NCBI GenBank assembly: GCA_945787445.1 | Contig: CALZHT010000081.1 | Span: 1 to 38,177 of the forward strand | Length of the DNA: 38,177 nt | From: an uncultured Desulfobulbaceae bacterium | GTDB taxonomy: Bacteria; Desulfobacterota; Desulfobulbia; Desulfobulbales; CALZHT01 | Direction of reading: 5' to 3' | Shown: positions 6,001 through 8,897 of the stretch, piece by piece | Layout of the letters: the number at the start of each line of letters is the position of its first letter | Position numbering within the stretch: position 1 is the stretch's first letter | Position numbers and translations under genes: made by a program | The notes under the pieces: generated by a model | Databases searched by the model: none | What the model saw: only the letters and a program-made list of their open reading frames with translations | What the model was told of the DNA's origin: nothing

Positions 6001-8198
6001 ATCTCCGGACCCTGGCTGTTGGTGTTTCCCTGGTTGGTTGTTTGCGATGTTCCGTCAATTATCGTGCCATTGGCGGTAACGGCCGAGAGGACAGAGGCAT
6101 CATCAATAGAGATGCGCCACCAGGAATCGGCGCCTATGGTCTGATAATTAGGATCGGTATTGGGTATATTGAAGAAAATAGCGGTATTTGGGGTGCCGTT
6201 GGCCAACGTAATACAATTTTCCAGCGAACCGGCGCCTGATGTATTGGTGTTGGTAACGGTACAGCTAGAAACAATAGTCAGCGTAGCATCTGCATTGTCA
6301 TTATTGACCAATACACTGCCCACTGGTTCGGTAGTCACCGCTCCCTGCAGTGTATTGCCGAGTACGGCGCCGGCCGCAATGTCGTAAGTAATCAGATACT
6401 GCGTAGCTGTCGTATTGATTGGTTCACTCAACCCGGTGAGGACGGCCTCGCCTGCGCTGAAGGAAACACCACTGCCGATTTGGGTGTCGCCGGCATCCCA
6501 TTCGTTGGCGGTTGACCCGTCATCACGCCACAGCTTGACGCCACCGGCCGCCACATCGCTATCAGCACCGATCCCGCTGCGAGTTACGGTGAGTTTATTC
6601 AGATAATCTGTGCCAGTCCCCATGGCCAGGGTAAAACTACTGACCGCATTATTAGTGCTGTTGGGGATATTGTATTTATCGGCAGGACTGGTTCCATCAC
6701 CGATATTGAAGGACGGCCCATGAGTGGCAAAGACGAACATCTGACTCATACTCACCGAACTCCCGCTGACATGCTGGATACCGACTTCAAGGTTATCGAA
6801 ATCAGTTGGCGTCCAGTTCAGGCCTGTCCAGGTGTAGGTTAATGGAAGCGTACAACACGCCCCGTCAATATCGGCAAAGGTGGTACTGTCAACAGGAGAA
6901 CCATCAGTGCCAATACGTTGATAACTCAGGGTAATATCCGGTCTTGCACCGCCACCGGTCTTCCCGGCCATAACATAGGCAGTAATTTCTGTAACCAAAT
7001 GCCCATTGGGAATCAGGCCGTTATCAAGGGTAAAGGTATTACGGCCACTCGTTCCACTCAGATTGGAGGCGGTATCATTTACCGCCGGCTGGCCGGTGCC
7101 GGCATTTGCAGGTTGATCGTTGACACAATCCCACCGGTTGGCGCAACCATTTGCGGTAAAGGCGGTATTGATGCCATCACCTGTAGGATGAAAAGCTTCG
7201 TCCAGAATTCCCCCGCCATCAGTAGTTTTGAGGATGACACCATCCCAACCGGTAATCCAACCGATATTGGCATCCACTGGAAAATGCATCCCCGTCAGAA
7301 AAAAACCTGATTCGAAGTTTTGCGTGGCCCAAGTAAAACCGCCATTATCAGTACGCAGGATGGTACCGGCATAACCAAGGATGAAACCTGTATTGGCATT
7401 GAGGAATTGAATTTCACGTAATAAGTAACCTGGCCCAGGATCGTCAGCAAACCAGTTCTCACCACCATCCGTCGTTTTATCCAGATTACCAATGTCACCT
7501 GCGGCATACCCGGTCGTATTATCGAAGAAAAATAGGTCCGAATAACTCCGGAAGGCCTCGGTATATTTGACAACCCAGTTGGTTCCCCCATCAGTAGTTT
7601 TAACAATAACACCTTCAAAGCCGGCAACAAATCCGGTGCTGGCATCGACCGGAAAGGTCACGGCCCGCAAATGTTCCGTAGTATTGGAGGTCTGTGGGCT
7701 CCAGTTTTCACCGCCATCAATGGTCTTAAGTATAGTACCGCTGTCACCAACGACATAACCTGTAGTGGTGTCTACTGGGAAATGAATTCCATACAATGGG
7801 GGATACGTTCCGAATGTTTTAACCACCCAGTTGGTGCCGCCATCAGTGGTTTTCAGGATTGTCCCGTTGCCACCGACAGCAAAACCGGTGGAGGCATCGA
7901 CCGGGAAATGAAGAGCATAAATATGTTCCGAAGTGTTACTGGTTTGAGAATTCCAGTTATTGCCGCCGTCGATGGTCTTGAGGATGGTACCATTCGCCCC
8001 AACGACATAACCGGTGTTGTTGTCAACGGGGAATCGTACCCTGTAGAGATTTTCCGAAGTTCCTGAGTTCTGGGTGGACCAAGTGGCCCAAGCTGATGGG
8101 ACTGTGATAAAAAAAAATATTAATAGAAATACAAATCGAATGATATGCTGAGCTCTGTACGTATTACAAATTAGTATTTGTTGATGCAGCGGTTTCAT
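1..8198 (-). CDS. Giant secreted Ycf48-like propeller / right-handed beta-helix protein (partial, C-terminus outside window)
   Basis: The frame is open from the ATG at 8198 to the left edge (over 2,730 codons, no stop seen in the stretches I translated), so the C-terminus and any anchor are missing. Residues 1-38 are a signal peptide with a hydrophobic core ending in PSAWA. Residues ~39-325 hold about seven repeats of the type GY..G..GTILKT.DGG.NW, the Ycf48/BNR-like beta-propeller signature. Residues ~335-645 are a linker domain I cannot name. From residue ~646 there are tandem beta-helix modules rich in GNYIGTD.TGT, NTIGG and RNIISGN motifs. Composition (Gly, Asn, Thr, Ser, Asp) fits extracellular solenoid adhesins or surface-layer-like proteins; no catalytic motif was seen. 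The start has no good Shine-Dalgarno and sits right after a terminator hairpin and a GEMM riboswitch. Adhesion is inference from the architecture; the secreted beta-helix character is clear. Confidence 0.9.
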   Translation of the reverse strand, partial: MKPLHQQILICNTYRAQHIIRFVFLLIFFFITVPSAWATWSTQNSGTSENLYRVRFPVDNNTGYVVGANGTILKTIDGGNNWNSQTSNTSEHIYALHFPVDASTGFAVGGNGTILKTTDGGTNWVVKTFGTYPPLYGIHFPVDTTTGYVVGDSGTILKTIDGGENWSPQTSNTTEHLRAVTFPVDASTGFVAGFEGVIVKTTDGGTNWVVKYTEAFRSYSDLFFFDNTTGYAAGDIGNLDKTTDGGENWFADDPGPGYLLREIQFLNANTGFILGYAGTILRTDNGGFTWATQNFESGFFLTGMHFPVDANIGWITGWDGVILKTTDGGGILDEAFHPTGDGINTAFTANGCANRWDCVNDQPANAGTGQPAVNDTASNLSGTSGRNTFTLDNGLIPNGHLVTEITAYVMAGKTGGGARPDITLSYQRIGTDGSPVDSTTFADIDGACCTLPLTYTWTGLNWTPTDFDNLEVGIQHVSGSSVSMSQMFVFATHGPSFNIGDGTSPADKYNIPNSTNNAVSSFTLAMGTGTDYLNKLTVTRSGIGADSDVAAGGVKLWRDDGSTANEWDAGDTQIGSGVSFSAGEAVLTGLSEPINTTATQYLITYDIAAGAVLGNTLQGAVTTEPVGSVLVNNDNADATLTIVSSCTVTNTNTSGAGSLENCITLANGTPNTAIFFNIPNTDPNYQTIGADSWWRISIDDASVLSAVTANGTIIDGTSQTTNQGNTNSQGPEIEIEGSAVTLGTQWGLSLNSSFNVIKGFIINGFNTGMSSGVRLAVAGSSNGIIACYIGTDYAGSVAIPNMYGIHIIGLNSNTVGGTSAVQRNIIAGNTLYNIRIDIGGSFNVIQGNYIGINASGTAAVGTTTYGIAVQAGSDSNEIGGNAAEERNIISGHTAAGISISGDFTDSNTIQGNYIGTDVTGTSPIPNANGIHISSNTQSNTIGGTASGEGNLIAYNTDSGVWVSFAFADFNKITGNSIYSNNGLGIKLNGDGANNDLPAPSISSVTPSGADYTVVATGPSSGTVEFFRVNNAASPFVQPDSSGAGEGYLFLGACVDNGACTGPYVSGSDTNATLGTYDITILGTGISDMDRVTAVAIASNNDTSEFAINQSAIPICTVTNTLDDSNPGSLRYCIENATNDTYIEFNIASAANASGGGQSWWKITLTSSLVIPGAASGVTIDGTTQTTNQGNTNTLGPEIEIDGNNAAFHGFQITSADNTIKGLIIGGFNVGVAYGVRISGASATGNTISGNYIGTDAIGTAANPNADGVYIGPGANNNTVGGSSANDRNIVSGNNFSGVSIFGPDSNVIKGNFIGTDANGTSPLANGSMGISITNGAISNTVGGSSAGDRNIISGNTSTAIRIYGAGTDSNIVRGNYIGVNVNADAALPQQYGIDISNSAKSNIIGGSAADEGNVISGNSWTGLTIAGSGTDSNVVLGNYIGTNESKTVPLANQQGITVGNSAQSNVIGGTDSGEGNTIAFNTFQGISLSTVDTDGNQISGNSIYENGTLGLDLDGAGSNNDQPAPTIDTIAPSGADFVVSATITAGDTIEFFRVNNLAAPAVMADGSGAGEGHLFLGQCQDNIGGGAPNCVGPHIDTTVDDADGAGGTVQVTLKATGLSAGDIITSTTTDAANGTSEFGPNMAALATTTCQVSTTADILIPPNGSLRACINYANSNPDTMISFNIPTSDSGYQTIGGDNWWRISPAGALPTITANGTIIDGSTQTTNQGNTNSQGPEIEIRGGATMDGFNLNSDNNTIKGFIINGFSTSGYAGIRIDDGVAAAPGPTGNTILANYIGTDYKGTDATGIGNDRGVYILNGANGNTVGSTVLADRNVISGNTGDGVFVTGAGSDSNIVKGNYIGTDVNGTAELGNGGDGIELSSSSSNTIGGGTAADRNIIAGNGGQGINLVSSSNSNTIKGNYIGIDSTGSAEIANGSNGIYIGNSTGNTVGGPAADDANVIGGNVNQGIALVISSTTTVEGNYIGTDTTGTVDFGNNAHGVSIALGSDNTVTSNSIAFSAQDGVYINSSNGNDILQNQIYSNTSLGINLDGGANGNKVAPTISSITSNGSDFDVTVTAASGDTVEFFRVNNAAAPVVTADGSGSGEGYLFLGSCTDGGGVCSGPYISGTDGAADGSMTVTLTSGGLSGGDIVTAMATDGTNGTSEFATNQTTPVTCTVTNTNDSGAGSLRNCITLANGNAGTTISFNIPNTDLGYQDLGAGRRWWRIQPNSGGGGALPSITANGTIIDGTTQTTNQGDTNSFGPEIEIDGSLAGFANGFTINSANIEINSLIVNGFNQVTRSGVFINGAGATSNIIKSSYIGTNYDGTITVGNDYGIYLSGSASANTIGGSNIGDGNVISGNGRDGVFIDNSNDNTVKGNYIGTDRTGTQDLGNTLSGVNIATSNNTTIGGVGANDGNIISGNNQRGIIISNSATNVYIYGNSIGTGPTGLEDIGNTLSGVDVQSNAAVPNVVIGGLESDKANLIANNGNGISLLSINGGTQVIGNTIHDNSASGMSVSSPNNEIVKNLIRNNNQGCTLSGGATDIKIYHNTIHGNSGGHGIRLDAAGAMIKNNIITGSGGYGIWVNGGAMTDAYNLITDAGTNPSNASGQCNVALSATTANADPLYNVDYTLQNASSAINHGCNLGAAGDDTACDDANDGAQPDLTNGANPNYYGSGPDVGAYENSSVTNTCIVTATADSGYGSLRDCIIWANGNAGQDTITFDVGVFNPG
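122..6263 (-). repeat. Four tandem beta-helix modules (plus start of a fifth) inside the giant protein gene
   Basis: Each module opens with a cysteine-led segment (C.VT.T.D..GSLR.CI..AN), continues with a WWRI/WWKI stretch and T.NGTIIDGTTQTTNQG..GPEIEI, runs through many GNYIGTD turns, and usually closes with GDTVEFFRVNN..AP and EGYLFLG. The leading Cys codons start at 6263, 4856, 3251, 1673 and 122, giving periods of 1407, 1605, 1578 and 1551 bases. All are multiples of three. The fourth module ends differently (NHGCNLGAAGDD, then GPDVGAYEN), suggesting it may be the last full helix. The copies have diverged at base level, so they are old duplications. Confidence 0.88.
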
Positions 8199-8205
8199 TT
8201 TGTCA

Positions 8206-8241
8206 TAAAAAAAAGCCTGCCCCGGACGGGTGACAGGCTTT
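8206..8241 (-). terminator. Intrinsic terminator of the riboswitch leader
   Basis: Read on the minus strand, AAAGCCTG pairs with CAGGCTTT around a GC-rich loop, followed by a run of eight T. The T run ends only a few bases before the ATG at 8198, so the terminator controls just the downstream giant gene. Its 5' arm contains GTCACCCG, an exact 8-base complement of CGGGTGAC in the aptamer, a possible antiterminator pairing. Confidence 0.85.
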
Positions 8242-8257
8242 GTCTCCTAACACATGG

Positions 8258-8352
8258 TTTGAAAACTTCGGCAGCCCCACTATCCCGCCGTTGGCAGGAC
8301 TGGTGGCTTTGCGTCACCCGGTTACCCGGGTTTTGCCCTTTTCGGATTAGAT
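8258..8352 (-). promoter_or_regulatory. GEMM-I class cyclic dinucleotide riboswitch aptamer
   Basis: The minus strand shows the conserved GEMM-I blocks in order: GGGCAAAACC, a P2 hairpin closed by a GTAA (GNRA) tetraloop, GACGCAAAGCC, a variable P3 arm, then GGGGCTGCCGA. Short flanking GAAAA and TTTTC segments could form P1. This block order matches the well-known c-di-GMP-I aptamers. The GGGC at the first block resembles c-di-GMP binders; a related subgroup in deltaproteobacteria binds cyclic GMP-AMP, and I cannot exclude it. It precedes an intrinsic terminator and the giant beta-helix gene, so it probably acts by attenuation. Whether the ligand turns the gene on or off is not settled by the sequence. 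Confidence 0.88.
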
Positions 8353-8465: not shown

Positions 8466-8897
8466 ATGATACAAAACAACCTGGTCAGAAAAGGAATTAT
8501 TATAGGTATGCTTTTTATCATGTTCTGCCAGATGTCGGGTTGCGGCTATATTTTGCATCCGGAACGACGGAATCAGTCCGTTGATGGGGGCATTGCCGTG
8601 CTTGATGGCCTGTTGCTCTTCTTTGGTATCCTTCCCGGTGCTGTAGCATTTGCAGTGGATTTCACCACCAACACCATATATCTGCCGCCCAATCAATCTC
8701 TCCTTGAGTCGGAAGGAAAGCAGAACCTCTTAGCAGTGAAACTGCCGCCAGGAAAGCTTGAGCACAAGGAAATTGAAAGATTCGTCAACCAATATTATGA
8801 CACAAGTGTGCGTCTCAATAAGGAACATTTCATAATCAAGCCAGTTGAAAACATAGATGTAGTGCGGAAGGTTCTTTTGGGCAAACCTGTTTCATAA
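8466..8897 (+). CDS. Small predicted lipoprotein, function unknown
   Basis: This 143-residue protein begins with a signal sequence and a lipobox (QMSGC, Cys at residue 26), so it should be lipid-anchored, probably at the outer membrane. After the Cys comes GYILHPERR, then a hydrophobic stretch (VLDGLLLFFGILPGAVAFAV) followed by DFTTNTIYLP. The pattern resembles a family of small lipoproteins in proteobacteria whose database names are unreliable. The start is supported by AAGGAG eight bases upstream. The gene points away from the riboswitch-controlled gene, so the two share a 267-base divergent intergenic region. No function can be assigned. Confidence 0.8.
   Translation: MIQNNLVRKGIIIGMLFIMFCQMSGCGYILHPERRNQSVDGGIAVLDGLLLFFGILPGAVAFAVDFTTNTIYLPPNQSLLESEGKQNLLAVKLPPGKLEHKEIERFVNQYYDTSVRLNKEHFIIKPVENIDVVRKVLLGKPVS

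Follow-up and report, generated by a model that had tools for sequence, protein, structure and literature searches.

The locus

The window analysed here is a whole contig (C81) of 38,177 nucleotides from the genome of an uncultured Desulfobulbaceae bacterium. On its minus strand, an open reading frame (ORF) of at least 2,732 amino acids runs from position 8198 to position 3 and is still open at the contig end, so that this length is a minimum and the end of the gene is missing. It is preceded on the same strand by a leader that contains a c-di-GMP-I (GEMM-I) aptamer (8346-8266), a linker hairpin, GUUUUC...GGAGAC, in the following gap (8266-8242; recognized in minimum free energy (MFE) folds and in the alignment), and an intrinsic terminator (8241-8207) with a tract of eight U residues (8214-8207). 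The initial annotation, which gave neither strand nor polarity for the leader, had named a GEMM riboswitch and a protein of more than 2,700 residues, and both were borne out. A search of the sequence ahead of the leader revealed no consensus sigma-70 promoter. The upstream region is shared with a divergent ORF on the plus strand (8466-8897), whose lipoprotein-like product of 143 amino acids had no Pfam or NCBIfam match.

The start codon had been placed directly after the terminator. An ATG does abut the U-tract (8206-8204), but it opens a mini-frame, ATG ACA AAA TGA (8206-8195), that reads M-T-K-stop, and it was rejected as the gene start because of the stop after three codons; the long ORF starts at the ATG at 8198, which is overlapped by the stop codon of the mini-frame and has no clear Shine-Dalgarno sequence. 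The mini-frame, lying just past the U-tract, might allow translational coupling, with CAGG in the 3' arm of the terminator as a weak ribosome site. A leader peptide from CTG 8236 behind AGGAG (8248-8244) was also considered and dropped: the start is non-standard, comparative support is lacking, and the AGGAG that would serve as its ribosome site lies partly inside the linker hairpin.

The encoded protein begins with a hydrophobic, signal-peptide-like segment, followed by a YCF48/BNR propeller (Pfam PSII_BNR/YCF48, 4.7e-29) and then by repeated beta-helix blocks (NosD and Beta_helix), which restart at residues 646, 1115, 1650, 2176 and 2693. The description of the product as a giant beta-helix protein thus holds for the blocks further on and not for the N-terminal part, which is the propeller; export and repeats together suggest a surface protein. 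Relatives of the giant protein were few in the 38 genomes searched and were mostly found through the propeller part, and for this reason synteny could not be used as a test of the leader.

Class and ligand of the aptamer

When the Rfam covariance models for GEMM RNAs were run, the aptamer scored above the gathering score of two families: RF03167 (8346-8266, minus strand; 67 bits against 59, E-value = 7.1e-14, cmscan) and RF01051 (8347-8267, minus strand; 74.3 bits against 35, E-value = 1.6e-14, whole-genome search). The latter family (GEMM-I) has 24 matches in the genome, the aptamer in the window being one of them. Clan competition assigned it the label RF03167 (c-di-GMP-I-GGC), whose consensus has a G at the A47 position of the alignment, a base that we take, from the name and consensus of that family, to be the mark of the GGC variant. 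The RNA in the window has an A there, as in canonical c-di-GMP-I, and on this base it does not belong to the variant in spite of its 67 bits. The other features are also those of c-di-GMP-I: a P2 hairpin with a GUAA tetraloop and core bases (8337-8310, minus strand; RF03167 alignment and sequence), P3, G8337, A8310 and UGCC at 8273-8270. In Vc2 numbering, assigned presumptively with the help of the alignment, G20 corresponds to 8337, G21 (8336) pairs with C46 (8311), and A47 corresponds to 8310, so that G20, A47, C92 and the pair G21-C46 are all canonical; position 20 is a G whatever the register, because 8338-8336 are all G. The aptamer lies in a 5' leader and is followed by the terminator and by the ORF at 8198, as expected of a riboswitch with an expression platform. 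Judged from score, structure and contact bases, the element is a real and fairly ordinary c-di-GMP-I riboswitch, of a class that is already known.

As to the ligand, c-di-GMP and cyclic GMP-AMP (cGAMP) had both been proposed. GEMM-Ib switches, which belong to a homologous aptamer class and respond to 3',3'-cGAMP, are common in Geobacter (PMC6456294), and leaders closely similar to that of the window occur in deltaproteobacterial relatives (Geobacteraceae and Desulfuromonadales), so the same RNA might bind cGAMP. However, Gmet_0970 has A20, and with the change A20G this cGAMP switch becomes selective for c-di-GMP (PMC6456294), whereas the RNA in the window has G8337 flanked by G8338 and G8336. 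The Hypr serine (Ser in place of Asp), characteristic of cGAMP synthases of that type, was found in none of the 17 GGDEF domains detected in the genome, which is about 96% complete (the search covered synthases of the GGDEF type, as distinct from the DncV type). The layout is also unlike that of the published cGAMP switches pilM (Gmet_0970) and GSU1761, which are ON switches (PMC6456294, PMC9262584); the terminator of pilM shares strands with the aptamer (PMC9262584), and that of the window is separate. Because of the G at position 20, with the A20G precedent, and the absence of Hypr-type proteins among the 17 GGDEF domains, c-di-GMP is favoured as the ligand, and cGAMP, decidedly unlikely on these grounds, was rejected as the main reading.

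Terminator and complementary strands

The terminator, CAAAGCCUGUCACCCGUCCGGGGCAGGCUUUUUUUUA (8242-8206, minus strand), has a folding energy of -17.1 kcal/mol (z = -3.7), and none of 200 shuffled sequences was as good. It starts 25 nucleotides past the aptamer and has no base in common with it, so the two can coexist. The arms of the linker hairpin between them occur also in the leader of a paralog in the same genome (L022).

The complementarity of eight bases between 8313-8320 and 8227-8234, which had been put forward as a choice between antiterminator and terminator, proved to be exact when read on the minus strand. The 3' strand of P2, CGGGUGAC (8320-8313), is the predicted antiterminator strand and pairs with a segment of the terminator 5' arm and loop, GUCACCCG (8234-8227), in eight exact pairs, or nine with one terminal G-U pair; this is the strongest contiguous helix in the RNA (-19.6 kcal/mol). 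When the terminator 5' arm was shuffled by mononucleotide or dinucleotide, a helix of the same strength was rarely obtained between it and the aptamer (p = 0.012 and 0.017, respectively), and the complementarity is thus above chance though not overwhelmingly so (p of about 0.015). It is shared by the paralogous leaders L010 (p = 0.013-0.015) and L022 (p = 0.017-0.028). The three copies are nearly identical in sequence and have no compensating changes, so that they provide no covariation for the antiterminator, and in a fourth sister leader, L013, the pairing of P2 with the terminator is absent. Among 24 homologous leaders, cognate pairing of aptamer and terminator was at best weakly better than non-cognate pairing (p = 0.032 and 0.056), and in the OFF-like subset it was not distinguishable from it (p = 0.39).

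A search with the 141-nucleotide leader as a DNA query gave one partial match, confined to the aptamer part, in two other genomes of the family. With GTAACYNGRTGACGCAAAGC, 30 named loci were recovered, mostly from Desulfuromonadales and Geobacteraceae, and separate terminators are the rule among them. The aptamer strand that is complementary to the terminator varies: it is the P1 3' strand in L055 (UGGCAG/CUGCCA) and L065 (UUGCCGAAG/CUUCGGCAA), J2/3 in L067 (GACGCAAA/UUUGCGUC), and the P1 5' side in L052 (CGAAAAGGC/GCCUUUUCG). A single antiterminator conserved across the relatives was therefore rejected, the complementary strand being locus-dependent and the permutation tests marginal or null. 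This variation raises the possibility that the aptamer of the window binds c-di-GMP and that its antiterminator is built from other strands, such as the terminator 3' arm with the AAAGCC of the aptamer, or P1-side sequences; in the predicted rod described below, the terminator 3' arm does pair with the 5' strand of P2 and with the A-rich stretch at the 5' end. However, the helix of the P2 3' strand is the strongest contiguous one, and its partner emerges earlier than the terminator 3' arm, so that the other strands seem rather unlikely to be the ones used. The specific antiterminator based on P2 is plausible rather than proven.

Predicted switching

Folding of the full leader in its ligand-free form gave as the MFE structure an antiterminator rod of -59.7 kcal/mol, in which P2 is open and paired with the terminator; when P2 was constrained to form and the terminator was present, the energy was nearly equal (-59.4 kcal/mol). 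In a transcript of 128 nucleotides, from which the terminator 3' arm has not yet emerged, the antiterminator was favoured by 5.8 kcal/mol. These values, which describe the equilibrium folding of the RNA alone, have the appearance expected of a co-transcriptional OFF switch, and together with the covariance-model matches they support the proposed choice between antiterminator and terminator. The polarity is predicted from the architecture: the terminator is separate, and the complementary strand lies within P2, on which the ligand pocket depends.

From this, we infer the following sequence of events. The aptamer would fold while the leader is transcribed. When c-di-GMP is absent, the emerging terminator 5' arm, GUCACCCG (8234-8227), would pair with the single-stranded UGAC beside P2 and next invade P2 itself (CGGG), so that the aptamer opens, an extended antiterminator rod is made, and RNA polymerase continues into the gene. 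When c-di-GMP is bound, the ligand pocket would hold P2 and its UGACGC strand in place, the hairpin of the terminator (8241-8207) would form, and transcription would end ahead of the gene. We put at roughly 70% the probability that the element is a c-di-GMP riboswitch of class I and that it serves as an OFF switch for transcription of the gene for this very large exported protein with repeats.

The leader might instead be a constitutive, non-switching attenuator, or its terminator 3' arm (CAGG) might mainly affect translation of the mini-frame and the overlapping ORF, the ligand barely altering termination. The missing covariation, the weak Shine-Dalgarno sequence and the overlap of the mini-frame TGA with the ATG of the ORF are consistent with this. 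However, the terminator is strong and has a U-tract of eight, the antiterminator and terminator folds have the near-equal energies expected of a switch, and the layout with a separate terminator is found in all ten G21-C46 aptamers with strong terminators in this genome and order; we thus regard such an element as highly improbable.

The predicted OFF switch resembles Cd1 of the Clostridioides difficile flagellar operon, which is an OFF switch, whereas pilM is an ON switch (PMC9262584). The aptamer fold and the ligand-contact bases are alike; in both, the terminator is separate and compatible with the ligand-bound aptamer, and an aptamer strand can form the antiterminator (PMC9262584), which in the RNA of the window is part of the MFE structure. 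The two differ in that the Cd1 antiterminator pairs G86/C87 on the 3' side of the aptamer and not the P2 3' strand, and in that Cd1 precedes a flagellar operon and not a gene for a giant exported protein. The nearest functional parallel appears to be the Bc2 RNA, a c-di-GMP-I riboswitch of Bacillus thuringiensis that precedes cap, a gene for a collagen adhesion protein (PMC4933901). In both cases, a c-di-GMP-I aptamer and an intrinsic terminator lie directly ahead of a gene for a (putative) surface protein; however, Bc2 is an ON switch (PMC4933901) and that of the window is predicted to be OFF.

Two layouts of GEMM-I aptamers

The 24 aptamers of the genome (L001-L024) fall into two types. Fifteen have the core GCC...GGAAAG with the pair C21-G46 (L021 and L023 are small variants), and the other nine have GGC or GGU...GCAAAG with G21-C46. 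All C21-G46 copies with a strong terminator have it overlapping the 3' strand of the aptamer, which is the ON layout; of the remaining copies, L006 has only a weak, doubtful hairpin, and in L020 and L024 the scan found no terminator. Four G21-C46 copies, namely L004 (the window), L010, L013 and L022, have a separate terminator, the OFF layout, and five have none. When 29 further loci of the order (within L085-L114) were added to those of this genome, the terminator overlapped in 29 of 29 C21-G46 aptamers and was separate in 10 of 10 G21-C46 aptamers that had a strong one. Across the phylum, 14 C21-G46 aptamers had overlapping and seven had separate terminators (most of the seven in family f22), and for G21-C46 the numbers were 26 separate and two overlapping, both doubtful (L040 is weak, and L064 has an over-long hairpin). 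Pair 21-46 thus tracks the layout in this genome and order, and phylum-wide it is only a tendency. The link may record two paralog lineages and not a causal relation, because copies of the same lineage do not count as independent cases.

Several other loci deserve mention. L154, L155 and L157-L160, of family f22, are C21-G46 aptamers with separate terminators; in several of them, CCACGGG in P3 seems to have its complement in the 5' arm (GCCCGUGG), so that these may be OFF switches that use yet another strand. Three G21-C46 aptamers (L003, L015 and L005) lie within about 5 kb of each other in L029 (G000:C41:43900-50627). They have no terminator, at least two of them each precede a gene for an exported protein, and CACCC/GGGTG near the start codon of L003 suggests translational control. 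The sister OFF-type leaders L010 and L022 (in L025 and L027 on contig C21) also lie ahead of exported proteins, the one after L022 having at least about 1,350 amino acids and running off its contig.

In short, the genome seems to use near-identical c-di-GMP sensors in two opposite senses, and this pattern is a more interesting lead than the riboswitch of the window itself. That pair 21-46 co-segregates with polarity in such a way that one messenger governs two opposite regulons through two aptamer subtypes, with the switch of the window in an OFF set for exported proteins, is a tentative reading, to which we give somewhat less than an even chance. The 24 natural variants of one aptamer, in both layouts, provide a compact set for learning what determines ON and OFF. 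If the reading is true, a rise in c-di-GMP would stop the synthesis of an exported repeat protein of extremely high cost as other GEMM switches are turned on in the same cell, and under the control of c-di-GMP one set of surface proteins would give way to another.
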